Positions 1 to 5,717 of a DNA stretch of 6,015 bases are shown here, one piece after another. This stretch comes from Spirochaetia bacterium. GTDB taxonomy: Bacteria > Spirochaetota > Spirochaetia > PWKH01. The stretch is from NCBI GenBank assembly GCA_021736505.1, contig JAIPFU010000104.1:1-6015 (forward strand), in the 5' to 3' direction. Under the pieces are notes generated by a model. It saw only the letters and a list, made by a program, of their open reading frames with translations. It was not told the origin of the DNA and did no database searches. Positions within the stretch are counted from its first letter, which is position 1. The number at the start of each line of letters is the position of its first letter. Position numbers and translations under genes: made by a program.

Positions 1-766
1 CATTAAGCTGCACAGTGACAAATATTTCAAAAGGGAAATCCCATATCCCTTTATGTTTCAGATCTTCGATGATTTCCACAAGCTTGGGAGACTGGTGTTC
101 ATTCTGATAGGCTAAGAGCGCTTCACGATCCACTTGATCTACATGAAATTCCAGCGACGCAGGAGTCATCAGCCCATCCTCTTCTCTTCCCTTCTGATAG
201 GAGCATCCCGCCATGGCAGCAATATCAGCATCTCCAGTTGCATCGATAATGACATCTCCCCGTAATGAAAACAGACCGCTTTTATTATGCGCTGTGAGAG
301 AAACAACTCTCTTTTCATACCGCTGAAGGCTGATAATCCTTGTCTGCAGATACGGCTGTATCCCTTCCTCAAGACATATAGTATCGAGAAACAGTTTCAT
401 TCTATTTCCATCAAAGGGAATACCTGCCGCCATGCGCGGATACCAGCCATGCGGGTTATTTTGTACATCTATAGTATCTGGTTCTATTGCTCCGCCGATG
501 GAGATAAGGCGATCTGTTAATTCATCGAATACTCCGCCGATTTTCCGTTCGACCCGCCCTGTCTTTTTGTTGTAGTATCTGCCGCCGAGAAGATGATTTA
601 TGCCGCTGTTCACGGCTACCCCTCCCAAGGCTCCTGATTGTTCTACAAGGGCCGTTTTTAAACCATTTCGTGCTGCTGTTACAGCAGCCGCAATGCCGCT
701 CATTCCGCCTCCGCAGACTATACAGTCAAAAGCAGTTTCTCCATTCACTGCGATGGTCGTCTCCAT
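1..766 (-). CDS. FAD-dependent oxidoreductase, N-terminal part (runs off left edge)
   Basis: The first 255 residues of a flavoprotein are present; the C-terminal part lies beyond position 1. The N-terminus has a Rossmann dinucleotide-binding motif, CGGGMSG at residues 18-24, followed by a helix and an acidic residue (E42) that would bind the FAD ribose. Residues 46-51 (ALGGVA) and the later DATGDADIAAMAG stretch (175-187) are typical of the FAD_oxidored family (PF12831), whose members are usually 430-550 residues long. The ATG at 764-766 is preceded by a strong Shine-Dalgarno (AGGAGAAGG, 770-778 complement). The gene starts 24 bp after the URO-D-like gene stops, so it is the third gene of that operon. 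Members oxidise or dehydrogenate diverse small molecules, and the substrate cannot be told. Inference: a cytoplasmic redox step of the same catabolic pathway. Confidence 0.88.
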   Translation of the reverse strand, partial: METTIAVNGETAFDCIVCGGGMSGIAAAVTAARNGLKTALVEQSGALGGVAVNSGINHLLGGRYYNKKTGRVERKIGGVFDELTDRLISIGGAIEPDTIDVQNNPHGWYPRMAAGIPFDGNRMKLFLDTICLEEGIQPYLQTRIISLQRYEKRVVSLTAHNKSGLFSLRGDVIIDATGDADIAAMAGCSYQKGREEDGLMTPASLEFHVDQVDREALLAYQNEHQSPKLVEIIEDLKHKGIWDFPFEIFVTVQLN

Positions 767-790: not shown

Positions 791-1954
791 TCATGATCTT
801 TTTACTGATGCTTCAGCATATGCTTCAAAAAGCTCCCGGGCTTCTCTTACTGATTCAGCATGATAGAGAAGCGAAACTCCAGTGGGATACTTTTCCATAA
901 TTCTCCCAGACAGCAGATCCTCTTTCTTTGGCTGTATTCTAAGCAGTGGGATCTTCTTCGCTTCCGCCCTCTTATATATCACATCAATATCGTTCATATA
1001 CGGCTGTCCGAAATCCAAACACTGCAGATTTTCACTATCCAGCATGGCATCAGCGGTATGATCAAATTTTCCGCAGGAGTGGATGCCTCCGCCATGGACC
1101 TTTTGAAGTACATACTCATCTGCGGGTTTTACAAGATCTCTATATATCTCCGATGAGATCATGACTACTGAGTCATTCCGGATAAGAATATTACCCTTGA
1201 GCAGTACTCCATGCTGATGAGAGAAACCGTCCATCCTTTCAGTAACATAGGGCTGGAAACGTTTCATACAGTTCAGCTGCATTTCGGCAGTCTTCATGAG
1301 CGCTTGCTGAACTAAATCAGGTCTAGTCAGCATATCAATGAATAGCTCCTGCCCAATAACCTGTTCAAGTGAATCCAAGGGTCCCTGCAGATCCGGCAAG
1401 GTTATCGTCAGAAGCTCAGCCAGTTCCGGATAGCGACGCAACTGTTCATGATAGAATTCATAACTCTCAATAACCTTATTTACCCAGACATTATTTTCTA
1501 TATCTGCAGCAGTATTCAAAGCATCTTCCAAAGAAAACTGTTCATCAGTCCGCTTTATCCAGGGAGTCTGCTCATCTCTCTGCTCCGGCGGGAAGCCAAA
1601 AAGGGATGCCACGGTGACCGTCCCCCAATTGGGGCGAATGGTCAACGGAAGATCATCTGAAAGCCTGTCACGGCAAACAATACTCTGTCCCCAGGCACTC
1701 ACAAGCTCATTGTACATCATGGCAGCAGGGCTGCTGTATATCGAACTATTGGGAAAGGGCTGAAACACATCTTCCCCTTCCAAAGGGTAGGAAAAAATAA
1801 TGGGAAGTCGATCTACTGACTCATATTGCAGAGCAGATCTGTGACGCTCCTCAGTAATCCGCTGCCGATCTCCTAAATCCAAATTGAGTATATAGAGGAT
1901 CACCTCTTCCAGACGGTTTTCAGCATCCAGGTGTTTTTCAGTATCCGCATACAT
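791..1954 (-). CDS. Uroporphyrinogen decarboxylase/MtaA-like protein
   Basis: A 387-residue protein of the URO-D superfamily, a TIM-barrel fold. An N-terminal extension of about 35 residues precedes the family opening RHRSALQYESVDRLPI (37-52). Mid-protein there is GPLDSLEQVIG (191-201), the family's 'gPld...G' segment. The NDSVVMIS stretch (260-267) and IHSCG (291-295) follow; H292 and C294 match the His-x-Cys zinc ligands of the cobamide-dependent methyltransferases (MtaA, MtbA, CmuA). The C-terminal cysteine ligand of those enzymes is not obvious: the corresponding region reads GVSLLYHAESVREA (359-372). C312 is the only cysteine after the motif. This is unlikely to be a haem-pathway HemE, given the HxCG motif and the catabolic context. 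The ATG has AGGGAG 8 nt upstream, and the gene begins 11 bp after the aldolase gene stops, so the two are translationally close. Its reaction is unknown: methyl transfer, or a decarboxylase-like or lyase step, are both possible. Confidence 0.85.
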   Translation of the reverse strand: MYADTEKHLDAENRLEEVILYILNLDLGDRQRITEERHRSALQYESVDRLPIIFSYPLEGEDVFQPFPNSSIYSSPAAMMYNELVSAWGQSIVCRDRLSDDLPLTIRPNWGTVTVASLFGFPPEQRDEQTPWIKRTDEQFSLEDALNTAADIENNVWVNKVIESYEFYHEQLRRYPELAELLTITLPDLQGPLDSLEQVIGQELFIDMLTRPDLVQQALMKTAEMQLNCMKRFQPYVTERMDGFSHQHGVLLKGNILIRNDSVVMISSEIYRDLVKPADEYVLQKVHGGGIHSCGKFDHTADAMLDSENLQCLDFGQPYMNDIDVIYKRAEAKKIPLLRIQPKKEDLLSGRIMEKYPTGVSLLYHAESVREARELFEAYAEASVKRS

Positions 1955-1965
1955 ATCTGCTCTCC

Positions 1966-2847
1966 CTATTCCTGCAGTCTCTGTTCAAATACTTCATCAA
2001 CCAAACGCTTATCATCTTCCGTCAGGGGAAGAAAGGGTCTCCGACACATACCACTTTGTATATGCTGTTTCTCCAGTACATACTTCTGTGCATTCAGCAA
2101 TTTGCCGGTTTTCAGCAATACGCGAATCACTTCATTGGCATCTGTCTGCAGTTCAGCTGCTTTCCTCATATCTCCCTGTTTATAAGCTTTTTGTATATTG
2201 ATATATTTTTCGGGCATGAAATTAAATGTACTCCCTATAGCTCCATCGGCTCCCATGGATAGGCCTGCAAGGAATATTTCATCAAGTCCATTATATATCA
2301 GCAGATCGGGGTCATCGTTTTTCATACCCTCAAGCTGATACAGATCATTGGATGTAAATTTAACTCCGATAATATTCTTGTGCTCCCTGAGCCGGCTCAT
2401 CATTTCGCTTGTCAGGGAGACACCGGAAAGACCTGGAAAATTATACGGGATGAGAGGAAGCTGTATGCTGTCAGCAATATCGGTATAATATCCTATAAGT
2501 TCATCTTCAGAGAATTTATAGTAAAAAGGGGGTATTGATGAAACGGCATCGGCGCCAGTTTCCTGAGCATGAAGGCCGAGTTTGATGGAAAAATCCGTAG
2601 AAATTGCTCCAATATGGCATATGACCTTCACTTTCCCGGCTGTTTCATCCAGAACGGTTTCTAAAATGCGCTTGCGTTCTTCAAAACTGAGAAGAAAAGC
2701 CTCTGCGGTACTTCCGCAGACATAAAAACCGTTGATACCTTTTTCAATATTCTTTGCTGTAAGCTGGCGCAGGGCCTGCTCATTGATCTTTCCCTCTTCG
2801 TCGAAGGGTGTAAGTAATGCGGTAAATAATCCTGCTAGTGGTTTCAC
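1966..2847 (-). CDS. nanA: N-acetylneuraminate lyase-like class I aldolase (DapA/NanA family)
   Basis: A 293-residue DHDPS/NAL-family TIM-barrel aldolase that forms a Schiff base with a 2-oxo acid. The resemblance to NanA runs the full length: ALLTPF (10-15), GSTAEAF (45-51), FYY (108-110), YNFPGLSG (135-142) with the catalytic tyrosine Y135, GVKFTSNDLYQLE (161-173) with Schiff-base lysine K163, YNGLDEIF (185-192) and IGSTFN (204-209). D189, E190 and S206 correspond to the residues that grip the sialic-acid glycerol tail in NanA, so a long polyhydroxylated substrate is likely. GSTGE of characterised enzymes is GSTAE here (A48). The start is GTG (2845-2847) behind an AAAGGGGG Shine-Dalgarno. 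It is the first gene of a three-gene operon and carries the TGATATATCA palindrome 26 bp upstream. No other sialic-acid gene (nanE, nanK, nagA, nagB) is visible, so the substrate may be another 2-keto-3-deoxy acid. Confidence 0.9.
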   Translation of the reverse strand: MKPLAGLFTALLTPFDEEGKINEQALRQLTAKNIEKGINGFYVCGSTAEAFLLSFEERKRILETVLDETAGKVKVICHIGAISTDFSIKLGLHAQETGADAVSSIPPFYYKFSEDELIGYYTDIADSIQLPLIPYNFPGLSGVSLTSEMMSRLREHKNIIGVKFTSNDLYQLEGMKNDDPDLLIYNGLDEIFLAGLSMGADGAIGSTFNFMPEKYINIQKAYKQGDMRKAAELQTDANEVIRVLLKTGKLLNAQKYVLEKQHIQSGMCRRPFLPLTEDDKRLVDEVFEQRLQE

Positions 2848-2873
2848 GAAGCCCCCTTTATCAATATATCTTA

Positions 2874-2883
2874 TGATATATCA
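2874..2883. promoter_or_regulatory. TGATATATCA palindromic operator, nanA-like operon
   Basis: A perfect 10-bp palindrome in the 115-bp gap upstream of the nanA-like operon, identical to the sites in front of gntR, hpcH and the rraA-like gene. Inference: operator of the GntR protein encoded next door. The overlapping TTGATA (2879-2884 complement) is the same hexamer used as -35 at gntR and hpcH. Here, however, the best matching -10 is only GATAAA (2857-2862 complement, 16-bp spacer), and it overlaps the Shine-Dalgarno, so the actual start of transcription is uncertain. Confidence 0.75.
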
Positions 2884-2906
2884 AAAAATGTATAATTTTT
2901 TCTCCC

Positions 2907-2933
2907 GCATAGATACTATCTCATTCCCTATGC
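2907..2933. repeat. Inverted repeat between gntR and the nanA-like operon
   Basis: GCATAG (2907-2912) and CTATGC (2928-2933) form a 6-bp perfect inverted repeat. Inside it, AGATACTATCT (2911-2921) is a 5+1+5 palindrome that would compete with it. It lies downstream of gntR and upstream of the nanA-like operator. It could be a weak hairpin at the end of the gntR transcript or a second protein-binding site. No U-tract follows the stem directly on the minus strand, so it is not called a terminator. Confidence 0.4.
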
Positions 2934-2962
2934 TGCACTATTTTTCAAAAACATTTCTTTGT

Positions 2963-3637
2963 TTAATTATCCACAAAGAGGTGGTGCTTACCGCTCCGCA
3001 GATGCTGCCGTATGATATATTCCGCTTCATCGGCATTCTCAGTTGTCAACTGCTCCACGAGTTCAATATGACTTTTTCTCTCCTGCTTATCCACAGGAAG
3101 CAGAATTCTATTCATATTATAGAAGATACCCAACTTAGTTATCCGGACAAATTCCCGCTCAAGAGCACTGCAGGAGGATAAAACAACTAAGTTTTTATGA
3201 AACTCAATCTCCTGCTCCCAGTGTTCCGGACTGTCGGCTTCTGTCTCTTCAACTTTTCTTGCCAGTTCAATTAAGCGTTCTTTATGGTCAACTATAGGCT
3301 TCCCATGATAATGCCGGGCAGCCTGGCATTCAATTGCCTCTCTGAGAATGAGCTGATTAAAGACATCCTCTTTCCGTATCGGTTTTACGATAGTACCTTT
3401 TCTCGGTATGCTTTCTACAAAGCCTTCAATTTCCAACTGCAGAATTGCTTCAAGTACAGGCGCTACGCTCACTCCGAGTTCATCAGCCAGCTTTCTTCTG
3501 TTAAGCACATTTCCAGGAACCAGTTCATTCTGCATAAACCGATCCAGCAGTTTTTCATACACTTCCTTAGAGAGTGAACTTTTCTGCTTAGGCACATTAT
3601 CTTTCAAGTCTGCATTCATATGAGTTTCTTTATCCAT
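2963..3637 (-). CDS. GntR-family regulator, FadR/FCD subfamily
   Basis: A 224-residue transcription factor. The winged helix-turn-helix spans roughly residues 22-88 (KLADELGVSVAPVLEAILQLEIEGFVE, then the wing RKGTIVKP). The all-helical FCD ligand-binding domain spans about 92-220. FCD metal-site residues are visible as E143, H147 (EIEFH), H190 (SHIELV) and H212 (QHL); the first is usually Asp and is Glu here. FCD regulators sense small carboxylates, often via the bound metal, and normally repress until the effector binds. Unusually, the recognition helix reads SVAPVLEA where the family norm is SRxPVREA, so both DNA-contacting arginines are missing. The gene has the palindromic operator in its own promoter, implying autoregulation, and sits centrally among the controlled genes. 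The start is uncertain: ATG 3637 is only 7 nt from the predicted -10 and has no Shine-Dalgarno. ATG 3619 (residue 7) is the alternative. Confidence 0.92.
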   Translation of the reverse strand: MDKETHMNADLKDNVPKQKSSLSKEVYEKLLDRFMQNELVPGNVLNRRKLADELGVSVAPVLEAILQLEIEGFVESIPRKGTIVKPIRKEDVFNQLILREAIECQAARHYHGKPIVDHKERLIELARKVEETEADSPEHWEQEIEFHKNLVVLSSCSALEREFVRITKLGIFYNMNRILLPVDKQERKSHIELVEQLTTENADEAEYIIRQHLRSGKHHLFVDN

Positions 3638-3644
3638 AATACCA

Positions 3645-3673
3645 ATAATAAATCATTTCTTCTGATATATCAA
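3645..3673 (-). promoter_or_regulatory. gntR promoter
   Basis: The -35 is TTGATA (3668-3673 complement) and the -10 is TATTAT (3645-3650 complement), with an exact 17-bp spacer. The -35 lies largely within the palindrome at 3663-3672, so a bound regulator would block RNA polymerase. The predicted transcript begins at about 3638-3639, almost on the first ATG of gntR. The hexamers and spacer length are identical to those of the hpcH promoter. Confidence 0.75.
3663..3672. promoter_or_regulatory. TGATATATCA palindromic operator, gntR
   Basis: An exact copy of the shared palindrome, overlapping the gntR -35 box. The flanks match the hpcH site closely: on the minus strand both read CAC-T before and, after one variable base, AAGAAAT. 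The position implies negative autoregulation (inference). Confidence 0.78.
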
Positions 3674-3780
3674 GTGATTTTTCAGACACGTTTTTTCTGA
3701 ACCCATTGTTTTTCTCCGCCATATTGTTCATCTCAAGAACATCCTGGGATTTCACCCCTCAGTTTTAAAGGATATTGACC

Positions 3781-4605
3781 TTACTTTGTCCCTTGCTGTG
3801 TAGAAGTATCCATGCTTATATCCGCTGCTGAATTTTTTAAGCTATCTATATCTTGCCTGATTTTTTCCTGTACTGCAATGATATCTGCTTCATGGAGGAC
3901 AAGGTTCATACCCTGCTGTATAAGCTCTTTTTCAAAGGCTATCCCCGCGCCTCCGTAGCCTTTATGGTATCCGGCACCTTTACCAAATTCCCGAGCGGTT
4001 CTGATAATATGAATAACCATCTCCTTGAAAATCGAATTATCATATTGCTCCGGTATTCCCATACTGCAGGATAGATCATGGGGACCAATGAGTACGGCAT
4101 CAACTTCCGGGTACTTGAGAATTTCGTGCAAGCTATCCACCGCCGTTCTGCTCTCAATATTCAGAATAAGCGCACTATGCTGATTCTGTACGGCTACATA
4201 GGATTCCAGCTCCTGAGAAGCATACTCTGAAGTCTTGAGAATTCTTTGCAGACTTTCCCCCTGGATAGGTCTTTTTTTAACGGAACCGATTAATCCTTCA
4301 ACTTGTTCCTTATTTTCTATATAGGGAGCAATGATGCCAGCAGCACCGCCGTCTAGAGCCATTCTTGCTTTTACTGGATCGGGAGAAGGAATTCTTAGCA
4401 AAGGAGGCAGACCCATTGCTGCATACATCCTGCACATGAGAGCAGTCTGCTCCCGGTTCAAGGGGATGTGCTCGGTATCAATAAACACAAAATCAACACC
4501 GCCGGCAGCAATAACTTCAGGCCATAACGGAGAACTTGATACAACCAAAGTACCATACATCATAATGCCATTCCGCAGTTTTTCTGGAACAGTAAAATTC
4601 TTCAT
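3781..4605 (-). CDS. HpcH/HpaI family class II aldolase
   Basis: A 274-residue class II (divalent-metal) pyruvate-type aldolase of the HpcH/HpaI/citrate-lyase-beta TIM-barrel family; HpaI is about 262 residues. The family's catalytic set is complete: H46 in DTEHIP (43-48, catalytic base), R71 in LLRIPSPD (69-76), and metal ligands E151 in NIESRTAV (149-156) and D177 in IGPHDLSCSMG (173-183). Members reversibly cleave 4-hydroxy-2-oxo acids to pyruvate and an aldehyde, as in homoprotocatechuate or sugar-acid degradation. An in-frame ATG exists upstream at 4689, but it lies upstream of the predicted promoter. The ATG at 4603-4605 has a perfect AAGGAGG 8 nt ahead, so it is the start. The polar tail (about 255-274) is not family-specific. 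The gene is transcribed alone, divergently from the rraA-like gene, from its own operator-bearing promoter. Confidence 0.92.
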   Translation of the reverse strand: MKNFTVPEKLRNGIMMYGTLVVSSSPLWPEVIAAGGVDFVFIDTEHIPLNREQTALMCRMYAAMGLPPLLRIPSPDPVKARMALDGGAAGIIAPYIENKEQVEGLIGSVKKRPIQGESLQRILKTSEYASQELESYVAVQNQHSALILNIESRTAVDSLHEILKYPEVDAVLIGPHDLSCSMGIPEQYDNSIFKEMVIHIIRTAREFGKGAGYHKGYGGAGIAFEKELIQQGMNLVLHEADIIAVQEKIRQDIDSLKNSAADISMDTSTQQGTK

Positions 4606-4613
4606 CAGAGGAG

Positions 4614-4620
4614 CCTCCTT
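4614..4620 (-). promoter_or_regulatory. Ribosome binding site that sets the hpcH start
   Basis: AAGGAGG on the minus strand, 8 nt before ATG 4605. With the -10 box at 4627-4632 the transcript should begin near 4620, so the leader is about 15 nt. The 28 residues encoded upstream of this ATG cannot be translated from this promoter. Confidence 0.85.
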
Positions 4621-4623
4621 AAA

Positions 4624-4636
4624 AGTATAATATACT
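4624..4636. repeat. AGTATAATATACT palindrome over the hpcH -10 box
   Basis: A perfect 6+1+6 inverted repeat that covers the hpcH -10 hexamer (4627-4632) and lies nine bases from the GntR-type operator. It may be a second protein-binding site, or simply a symmetric AT-rich -10 region. It is not found at the gntR promoter, which otherwise has the same architecture. Confidence 0.5.
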
Positions 4637-4655
4637 ATTTCTTGTGATATATCAA
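4627..4655 (-). promoter_or_regulatory. hpcH promoter
   Basis: The -35 is TTGATA (4650-4655 complement) and the -10 is TATTAT (4627-4632 complement), with a 17-bp spacer, exactly as at gntR. The -35 overlaps the palindromic operator. The predicted start of transcription, about 4620, falls at the Shine-Dalgarno. Confidence 0.8.
4645..4654. promoter_or_regulatory. TGATATATCA palindromic operator, hpcH
   Basis: The third exact copy of the palindrome, overlapping the hpcH -35. On the minus strand its flanks (CACT before; AAGAAAT after one variable base) are shared with the gntR copy, so the bound element may be longer than the 10-bp core. Confidence 0.78.
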
Positions 4656-4827
4656 GTGCTATTTTATGTTTTTTAATATAGCTGATCACCTTGCGTAAAT
4701 TCTCTTTTCTTGAACTTCATCAACGGGCAGAATAGTTAGTAATGGCCCACCTGCATAATAAATAATAATTGGATCACCTATTATGTACATCTTTTTTAGG
4801 TATCATCTGGATTTTCATCAAATAAAA
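4656..4827. other. AT-rich spacer between divergent hpcH and rraA promoters
   Basis: No gene is supported here. The middle (about 4757-4770) is a run of AATAATA-like sequence, and GATCACCT occurs twice (4684-4691 and 4772-4779). I see no operator copy, hairpin or convincing promoter other than the two described at its edges. It probably serves as a spacer that keeps the two divergent promoters independent, or as an activator landing zone. Confidence 0.5.
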
Positions 4828-4857
4828 TTGACAGAGCCGGCAGTTCTCATGTAGTAT
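4828..4857 (+). promoter_or_regulatory. rraA-like gene promoter
   Basis: There is a perfect -35, TTGACA (4828-4833), then an 18-bp spacer and TAGTAT (4852-4857) as a moderate -10. The palindrome begins two bases downstream, over the likely start of transcription. The leader to the ATG would be about 110 nt, much longer than at gntR or hpcH. The -35 overlaps the left arm of a long-range inverted repeat. Confidence 0.65.
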
Positions 4858-4909
4858 ATGATATATCAACAGATATTTTATAACTTGTATGTACTGCATA
4901 CGGCTCTGT
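4831..4909. repeat. Long-range inverted repeat flanking the rraA promoter and operator
   Basis: ACAGAGCCG (4831-4839) is repeated inverted as CGGCTCTGT (4901-4909). The match resumes inward as GCAGT (4840-4844) and ACTGC (4893-4897), with three extra bases in the right arm. The arms enclose the -10 and the TGATATATCA operator. The left arm overlaps the -35 and is not transcribed from this promoter, so the repeat acts as DNA, plausibly as two sites for another regulator, rather than as an RNA hairpin. Confidence 0.55.
4859..4868. promoter_or_regulatory. TGATATATCA palindromic operator, rraA-like gene
   Basis: The fourth exact copy of the palindrome. Here it sits immediately downstream of the -10 box, over the predicted start of transcription, instead of over the -35 as at gntR and hpcH. 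Its flanks differ from those copies. The position fits repression by steric block (inference). Confidence 0.75.
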
Positions 4910-4950
4910 TTTCTGAATTTTACTTAATTCATTTGTAAACGATACAAGTT
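4882..4950 (+). other. Potential structured leader of the rraA-like mRNA
   Basis: AACTTGTAT (4882-4890) and ATACAAGTT (4942-4950) form a perfect 9-bp stem within the predicted 5' leader, ending 13 nt before the Shine-Dalgarno. The large loop contains a smaller hairpin, GAATT (4915-4919) with AATTC (4926-4930), and GTATG/CATAC (4887-4891/4897-4901), which would compete with the outer stem. It does not match any riboswitch class I recognise. It could also be a DNA-level dyad. Confidence 0.4.
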
Positions 4951-4973
4951 GTGAAAAATTAACGGAGGAATGC

Positions 4974-5717
4974 ATGACCATAGAGACATTGCTGAAACTG
5001 CAGCGCTGGAACACACCGGCTGTCTATAACGGCTGGGAAGCTGTAACTGATCATCCGAGAACCAGCTGCTTCAACCTTGACCCAGTTAGCCAGTTCACCC
5101 CGAAACAGGGCATCATGGCAGGAAGAGCTGTTACCGTTGTTATTGAACCGGGAAATCCGGAACATCCAAAACAGAATATGGATGCCTGGAATGAATATAG
5201 AGCTTATATTGCATCAATTGAGGGTCCCAAAATTGTTGTTGTTCAGGATCTTGACAGCCCGAAGGCCTTGGGAGCCTTTTGGGGGGAAGTAAATACCAAC
5301 ATTCACTTGGCTTTAGGCTGCGTCGGAACTATCACAGATGGAGCAGTACGGGACATTGATGAGATTCGGGAAACAGGTTTCAATGTACTGGCACGACGAT
5401 TATGCGTCGGACACGCATGGAGTTACCCTGTTCGCTGGAATTGTTCAGTTTCCGCCTTCGGCTGTCCAATAGAACCCGGTCAGTTACTGCACGCTGACCA
5501 GCACGGCTTTCTTGCAATCCCGAAAGAGGATGAAGAGGCGCTGCTCCATGCTGCAGAATTTCTCGACAGCTTAGAAAATGAAACAGTTATTGCCGCAGCT
5601 AAACAAAGCCGGGGAAAAAGCATGGAAGCTATTCTCGCCTCAATAGCTCGAGCAGACAATGAGTTCGGGAAATTCTATAAACAGAAATTGGGGACAGATT
5701 CAGCAAACGTAAAATGA
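4974..5717 (+). CDS. RraA-like / 4-hydroxy-4-methyl-2-oxoglutarate aldolase family protein
   Basis: A 247-residue RraA-fold protein. The family core is clear: WGEVNTNIHLALGCVGT (103-119) leading into ITDGAVRDIDEI (120-131), with R126 and D127 as the substrate- and metal-binding pair of the HMG/CHA aldolases, then HADQHGFLAIP (173-183). The length fits the aldolase and oxaloacetate-decarboxylase branch (about 220-240) rather than the ~160-residue RNase E inhibitor RraA. Characterised relatives use a divalent metal to cleave 4-hydroxy-4-methyl-2-oxoglutarate to pyruvate or to decarboxylate oxaloacetate. Databases often mislabel the family as demethylmenaquinone methyltransferase. The start ATG 4974 is set by GGAGG (4964-4968) 5 nt upstream; the ATG at 4970 is out of frame. 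It is transcribed divergently from the HpcH aldolase from a promoter with the shared operator, so it likely handles an oxo acid of the same pathway. Confidence 0.88.
   Translation: MTIETLLKLQRWNTPAVYNGWEAVTDHPRTSCFNLDPVSQFTPKQGIMAGRAVTVVIEPGNPEHPKQNMDAWNEYRAYIASIEGPKIVVVQDLDSPKALGAFWGEVNTNIHLALGCVGTITDGAVRDIDEIRETGFNVLARRLCVGHAWSYPVRWNCSVSAFGCPIEPGQLLHADQHGFLAIPKEDEEALLHAAEFLDSLENETVIAAAKQSRGKSMEAILASIARADNEFGKFYKQKLGTDSANVK

Follow-up and report, generated by a model that had tools for sequence, protein, structure and literature searches.

Regulators of the FadR/FCD subfamily of GntR proteins read a palindromic operator with the consensus TKGT/ACMA, to which BioR (TTATMKATAA) and NanR are named as exceptions in the accessible text of Suvorova et al. 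(2015, PMC4494728). In FadR, according to the same text, Arg45 contacts guanine and Glu34 bonds electrostatically with Arg35, Arg45 and Arg49. An arginine in the recognition helix is described as a typical GntR/FCD feature in the accessible text of PMC7797058, where Arg45 of Atu1419, a VanR-type GntR/FCD repressor of Agrobacterium fabrum, reads G3 of the operator, and the protein no longer binds once G3 is changed to A and C8 to T. Here we consider a stretch of 6,015 nucleotides (nt) from a Spirochaetia bacterium (assembly GCA_021736505.1, contig JAIPFU010000104.1; the window, hereafter) in which one exact 10-bp palindrome, TGATATATCA, precedes each of four transcription units, and in which one of these units encodes a GntR/FCD protein whose recognition helix and putative operator lie outside the rule described for the family.

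Judging from the sequence, it is very probable that the repressor whose gene lies among the four palindromes lands on them, and the DNA-reading head and the target sequence of its clade seem to have changed together. The explanation that we favor, and consider highly likely, is that a dimer of the window GntR/FCD protein binds TGATATATCA and represses four promoters including its own until an effector releases it, its DNA-reading head having changed along with its operator. The putative operators are listed with their syntenic counterparts in two related loci, L008 and L001.

Positions 2874 to 2883, minus strand: operator copy 1 (putative), exact TGATATATCA, 26 nt 5' of the start (2847) of the N-acetylneuraminate-lyase-type (NAL/DHDPS) gene; syntenic with L008:8795 and L001:3002.
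Positions 3663 to 3672, minus strand: operator copy 2 (putative), in the gntR promoter, exact, 25 nt 5' of the gntR start (3637); syntenic with L008:8041.
Positions 4645 to 4654, minus strand: operator copy 3 (putative), exact, 39 nt 5' of the likely HpcH/HpaI ATG (4605); syntenic with L008:7156.
Positions 4859 to 4868, plus strand: operator copy 4 (putative), exact, 105 nt 5' of the RraA-like start (4974); syntenic with L008:7078.

An exact scan placed the palindrome at these four positions and nowhere else in the window, just as the sequence-only reading of this DNA had claimed. That each copy is intergenic and precedes one of four units (HpcH; gntR; the NAL, UroD-like and FAD oxidoreductase operon; and the divergent RraA gene) also stands, provided that the likely ATG at 4605 is taken as the HpcH/HpaI start, since the earlier GTG (4689) in the mechanical list of open reading frames (ORFs) would enclose copy 3. 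Four copies are far more than chance would supply: 200 dinucleotide shuffles of the window gave a mean of 0.01 and never four, and the Markov expectation is 0.016 under a first-order model, in line with the earlier estimate of fewer than 0.02 copies in 6 kb, and 0.052 under a second-order model. When up to two mismatches are allowed, the window holds 12 matches against a shuffle mean of 4.87, a number reached in one of the 200 shuffles.

By domain and fold, the regulator is an ordinary member of the GntR/FCD family.

Positions 2963 to 3637, minus strand: gntR, GntR/FCD transcription factor of 224 aa; PF00392 at 55 bits (cut-off 27) and PF07729 at 28.4 bits (cut-off 24.3).

Its predicted structure has a mean pLDDT of 89.6, the top Foldseek matches are GntR/FCD regulators, and with 59.2 bits against a cut-off of 271.5 it falls short of assignment to PhnR (TIGR03338). 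The recognition helix, which in the model spans residues 58–71 and so would begin at about V58, reads S-V-A-P-V-L-E where the family has SRTPVRE, with S57, A59 and P60 unchanged throughout 42 homologues. From a by-eye alignment to the FadR sequence, we take Val58 to correspond to Arg45, Leu62 to Arg49 and Arg47 to Glu34, with Arg48 (FadR Arg35) retained. The guanine-reading arginine is thus replaced by Val58, and the GT...AC core is absent from TGATATATCA, the clade operator TGAT..ATCA differing from the canonical TKGT..ACMA at the third base and its partner. A recognition-helix arginine does not define the protein family. The metal ligands expected in the family are an Asp or Asn together with three His. 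Also invariant across the 42 homologues are H147, H190 and H212, and Glu143, which comes four residues ahead of H147, occupies the place of Asn137, which precedes His141 in Atu1419.

The association between regulator and palindrome extends well beyond the window. Loci were collected by a search for the regulator and not for the motif (67 found and 62 used; the scan patterns included VS[VM]APVLEA), and all 1024 possible 10-bp palindromes were ranked by their occurrence in the 300 nt upstream of each match and its first 30 nt. The commonest was TGATATATCA, present at 14 of the 62 loci, as against two for the next best, and in 200 Markov resamples the best palindrome never exceeded four. Homologues of the window regulator from Spirochaetota, Calditrichota, Clostridia, Lentisphaerae and Verrucomicrobiota have exact copies directly upstream. 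Across 28 genomes, 27 of 102 copies fall inside regulator loci (0.42 expected) and 22 lie within 1 kb of gntR (0.074 expected). Nine of these genomes were picked with knowledge that the motif was present, and the other 19 were taken in list order (L001–L020 without L013); in these 19, 17 of 64 copies are in regulator loci as against 0.26 expected, with at least one copy at ten of the 19 loci.

It is the placement of TGATATATCA that is informative, not its number in a genome. In the seven genomes measured other than G006, the raw count is close to the first-order and below the second-order expectation, and the total of six in the 2.6-Mb whole genome carrying L008 (G008) is not above expectation (5.9 first-order, 22.9 second-order). 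Moreover, 25 of 75 distinct genomic copies lie inside ORFs as delimited by a crude ORF caller, which weighs against the favored explanation; with counts near expectation, a bare 10-mer far from the regulator therefore proves little. The genome-wide count was accordingly rejected as a test of presence or absence, genomes of the family to which L008 belongs holding between 0 and 16 copies, most of them without the regulator, and a control with the reversed pattern, whose dinucleotides differ, was not used as evidence. The exception is G006 (71% GC in the sampled DNA), which has six copies where 0.09 are expected. Four of these lie 17–114 nt from the start of a gene, and the products include a second FCD regulator as well as a transporter binding protein and two redox enzymes, a pyridine-nucleotide oxidoreductase and an aldehyde ferredoxin oxidoreductase. 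The fifth copy overlaps the start of a gene, and no gene begins within 400 nt of the sixth. Separately, a Clostridia genome (G020; L104–L112) has ten copies, all intergenic by the crude ORF caller, where composition predicts 4–12, and two of these precede GH28 and pectate-lyase-like genes.

The occurrence of the site was compared between types of helix. This comparison drew on 156 loci, of which 138 were kept (15 duplicates, 2 short and 1 low-scoring were dropped), searched on both strands. Regulators with an x-A-P helix have an exact site in 18 of 52 cases and a site with at most one mismatch in 30 of 52; for arginine helices both figures are 0 of 49, and for other helices they are 2 and 5 of 37. 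The difference between the x-A-P and arginine groups (Fisher's exact test, p = 1.5e-6 for exact sites and 6.9e-12 for at most one mismatch) is not corrected for descent. In a tree of 96 regulator rows including the window (which, like the resampling of 44 regions given below, rests on rows that read minus-strand matches as plus), all site-bearing rows belong to a single 63-row clade (SH-aLRT 99). The sequences therefore suggest a strong association between helix type and site, but one that arose in one event. Upstream of two regulators with arginine helices, L200 and L204, lies TGGTATACCA, a natural contrast that departs from TGATATATCA in the third base and its partner alone. Two loci with the helix SPLPVTE or SPMPVTE (L047 and L051) have a related palindrome, TGACATGTCA, upstream of gntR, and three loci with other helices have TGATCGATCA; these are possible further operator variants in a sister group.

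Several observations weigh against this account. The A-P helix needs one change on the tree, and since there is only one independent pair, the tree offers no phylogenetically independent test of helix against site. The helix groups came from mostly different searches, 43 of the 52 A-P loci from the search that included the pattern and 48 of the 49 arginine loci from others, and eight of 49 arginine regulators have the canonical TKGT(2-3)ACMA upstream as against three of 52 A-P regulators, which does not reach significance (p = 0.12). At 11 of the 43 A-P-helix loci in the set of 62 there is no site at up to one mismatch in the 3–21 kb examined for each.

A-P-helix loci without a site: L004, L009, L012, L013, L014, L019, L020, L030, L031, L034 and L041.

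Five related regulators (L010, L012, L013, L014 and L019) have none directly upstream, although in L010 a site lies about 740 bp ahead of the regulator, before the preceding gene. Finally, three genomes that also carry the first (SVAPVLE) regulator (G001, G005 and G006) have a second gene for an FCD regulator, this one with a helix of the arginine type (SRTPLRD or SRAPLRD), and TGATATATCA lies 15–17 nt upstream of it.

L249:4131-4823: second FCD regulator.
L252:1486-2226: second FCD regulator.
L256:4083-4757: second FCD regulator.

The match of helix to operator is hence not exclusive, unless the SVAPVLE regulator controls the second gene in trans; the site before the second regulator may reflect either such cross-control or an independent use of the same sequence. 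When the L252 protein was sought in 296 genomes it was found in one, again G005, which has the first regulator too. Downstream of it in L252 is a gene for a PFL-like glycyl-radical enzyme.

A rival explanation is that some other factor, for example a metal repressor of the TroR/DtxR type or an FCD paralogue, uses the palindrome as its operator, and that the local GntR is merely adjacent. Oligonucleotides of the Treponema denticola tro promoter contain TTTTGATATATCAAAA (accessible text of PMC2628430), an example of a promoter that has this core and is bound by an unrelated repressor, TroR. The 10-mer is also far more widespread than the regulator and by itself not diagnostic, occurring in 106 of 139 genomes of the L008 family, whereas ten of the 139 have the regulator (E ≤ 1e-20), and besides the second regulator just described, G008 alone has 23 FCD matches. 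Yet AAA begins only three of 52 flanks, the TTT and AAA arms of the tro site occur together at none of 26 regulator-adjacent sites, and Pfam finds no metal gene among the window genes. As for a paralogue, 14 of the 23 FCD matches in G008, those listed, are on contigs without a copy, and with so many matches the motif is not a general mark of FCD genes there. Since the site recurs with the regulator across phyla and beside clusters of varied content, we regard control by another factor as quite unlikely. The scan of related genomes that the sequence-only reading had proposed thus gave a divided answer, in that copies concentrate at regulator loci but most family genomes with the 10-mer lack the regulator, and the 11 A-P-helix loci listed above show no site in the DNA examined.

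The positions of the sites relative to promoters suggest how they might act. A promoter scan of positions 2800–5000 gave 11 matches where shuffling predicts 6.1, and the three best of the 11, each with ten of 12 consensus bases, belong to operators. All are predictions.

Positions 3645 to 3673, minus strand: predicted sigma-70 promoter of gntR, TTGATA-17-TATTAT, its -35 sharing five of its six bases with the operator.
Positions 4627 to 4655, minus strand: predicted sigma-70 promoter of the HpcH gene, TTGATA-17-TATTAT, its -35 likewise sharing five of its six bases with the operator.
Positions 4828 to 4857, plus strand: predicted promoter of the RraA-like gene, TTGACA-18-TAGTAT, with a single base separating its -10 from the operator.

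Because two sites overlap a predicted -35 and one follows the -10, occlusion of the promoters is likely. This overlap could also mean that the repeat is mainly a promoter element, with TTGATA as the -35 hexamer and a palindrome that AT-rich promoters bring about as a by-product, particularly as two of the four sites supply most of the -35 in the region's best matches. But the other half of the palindrome recurs though a -35 does not need it, the RraA site sits beyond the -10, and the 49 arginine-type regulators have no copy upstream even at one mismatch. In addition, 44 regions contain 17 exact sites, whereas resampled sequence of the same composition has a mean of 0.02 (rows read as for the tree), and we consider this explanation highly improbable. 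Activation by the regulator, or an action that differs from site to site, seems to us unlikely: sequence gives no direction of regulation and the RraA site is 105 nt before the start codon, but sites that overlap a predicted -35 or follow a predicted -10 suit a repressor.

Each of the four window sites has its own copy with two or three mismatches 12 bp away.

Positions 2862 to 2871, minus strand: degenerate second copy AGATATATTG (as read on the minus strand), 12 bp from copy 1, three mismatches, offset 2.
Positions 3675 to 3684, minus strand: degenerate second copy TGATTTTTCA, 12-bp offset from copy 2, two mismatches.
Positions 4657 to 4666, minus strand: degenerate second copy TGCTATTTTA, 12-bp offset from copy 3, three mismatches.
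Positions 4871 to 4880, plus strand: degenerate second copy AGATATTTTA, 12-bp offset from copy 4, three mismatches.

At other offsets from 0 to 15, copies with two or three mismatches were found in two of eight flanks, both at offset 7. Around 26 exact sites (52 flanks), TGAT begins at offset 2 in 11 flanks, as against 0–2 at 19 other offsets, and GATA at offset 3 in 13, as against 0–1 at 19 others; a second copy, seen as GAT on at least one side, accompanies 15 of the 26. This agrees with the additional half-sites 7–12 nt from the site center reported for the FadR/FCD family in the accessible text of PMC4494728. Near-perfect tandem operators 12 bp apart, which overlap as ATCACGTGAT, occur in L033, L037 and L193, from two Lentisphaerae metagenome-assembled genomes (MAGs) and one genome of the phylum to which G022 belongs.

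Under repression by the local regulator, a dimer of the GntR/FCD protein would occupy TGATATATCA, perhaps with another dimer on the degenerate copy, and repression would come from covering the -35 or the start region of the four promoters, that of gntR included, which would amount to autoregulation. Release of the repressor would follow when a carboxylated pathway intermediate, probably a 2-keto-3-deoxy sugar acid or a precursor of one, occupies the putatively metal-holding FCD pocket with its three invariant histidines. The change of head would comprise V58 for the guanine-reading arginine, L62 for its neighboring arginine and R47 for the bracing glutamate, matched in the operator by TGAT..ATCA for TKGT..ACMA.

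The kind of pathway is suggested by the remaining genes of the window.

Positions 2 to 766, minus strand: FAD-dependent oxidoreductase, PF12831 at 150 bits over 2–763, truncated by the window end.
Positions 791 to 1954, minus strand: UroD/methyltransferase-like protein of 387 aa, some homologues of which are named uroporphyrinogen decarboxylase family.
Positions 1966 to 2847, minus strand: N-acetylneuraminate-lyase-type aldolase of the DHDPS family (NAL), NF003164 at 336.9 bits (cut-off 281).
Positions 3781 to 4605, minus strand: HpcH/HpaI aldolase of the 2-keto-3-deoxy sugar acid type, PF03328, best PDB match YfaU.
Positions 4974 to 5717, plus strand: RraA-like aldolase/decarboxylase, PF03737, best PDB match 3noj.

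Gaps within the NAL, UroD-like and FAD operon are 11 and about 24 nt, and a DUF445 fragment that converges with RraA at the right end of the window lacks a site. The best PDB matches of the NAL product are N-acetylneuraminate lyases, and its TIGR00683 score is under the cut-off (295.8 as against 382). Neither Pfam-A nor NCBIfam gave a match to the UroD-like protein at 1e-3, nor did the PDB at 0.01, yet 445 homologues were found at E ≤ 1e-3. With two aldolases of the 2-keto-3-deoxy-acid type (NAL and HpcH) and one of the RraA type, the gene types point to a sugar-acid pathway.

The nearest relative found is L008, from the MAG Sphaerochaetaceae bacterium bin_35, with a regulator 69% identical and the same genes in the same arrangement as the window at 54–69% identity. 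Its order is RraA, two sites, HpcH, site, gntR, site, NAL, UroD-like, FAD oxidoreductase, sulfatase, a fifth site and a Dpp-type transporter, and behind RraA lies another UroD-like gene; the listed HpcH ORF starts at a TTG that encloses one site, and the likely ATG follows the site. Five of the six TGATATATCA copies in G008 are in this cluster, and the sixth (L103:4991) is at the ends of two convergent ORFs and precedes no gene. L001 keeps NAL, the UroD-like gene, RraA and two sites, and only L008 among the 62 loci has all five enzyme genes; elsewhere the neighbors of the regulator vary and the site is often retained. While the earlier proposal that the local GntR binds the palindrome and controls a regulon gains from the exact copies upstream of homologues across phyla, its description as self-contained finds no support: in L008 a sulfatase extends the NAL operon and a further TGATATATCA site precedes a transporter (SBP_bac_5 and BPD_transp_1 domains), and the window ends inside the FAD gene. 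The added sulfatase, which has an SGSH_C domain, and the transporter (L008:5208-15467) hint that the substrate may be a product of a sulfated glycan.

In the literature searched, we found no description of this regulator–operator pair. The accessible texts have TGATATATCA in the tro promoter oligonucleotides, a primer and a table row on Vibrio cholerae HapR/LuxO binding, and a search for GntR with ATATATCA gave one match, by its title on prodigiosin. A broader view, to which we give an even chance, is that a deep FCD clade spanning Spirochaetota, Calditrichota, Clostridia and PVC bacteria rewrote the GntR code in one step, from E34/R45/R49 (FadR numbering) to R/V/L and from TGGT..ACCA to TGAT..ATCA, the latter serving in tandem as operators 12 bp apart, and that in Spirochaetia it controls an undescribed sugar-acid pathway with three aldolases. 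The locus offers a testable regulator–operator pair for a GntR/FCD clade to which the libraries searched give no separate name, and a starting point from which regulons of uncultured Spirochaetota and PVC bacteria can be predicted. It also serves as a natural experiment on how GntR proteins recognize DNA, in which the hallmark arginine–guanine contact has apparently been lost from protein and operator together.

Among known systems, TroR of T. denticola resembles the window in that its promoter contains TGATATATCA, but it is a DtxR-like metal repressor with TTT/AAA arms around the core (accessible text of PMC2628430). The solved sequence closest to the profile is TM0439 (3sxy/3fms), an FCD regulator of Thermotoga, whose helix SFTPVRDAL likewise lacks the first arginine but retains the second. 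With the FadR/FCD subfamily as described in the accessible text of PMC4494728, the window shares an AT-rich palindrome, the 2-nt spacing class and an arginine at helix-turn-helix (HTH) position 28 (R48); it differs in that its operator lacks the GT/AC core and that HTH positions 38 and 42 are not arginine. Atu1419, which is among the nearest folds to the window GntR, has a 10-bp palindromic operator, ATGTATACAT, which occurs twice in identical form in the promoter region of its own gene and once ahead of a neighboring gene, and represses a small catabolic cluster that includes itself (accessible text of PMC7797058), as we infer for the window. The difference is that the window operator has A and T at positions 3 and 8, and its regulator a valine in place of Arg45.

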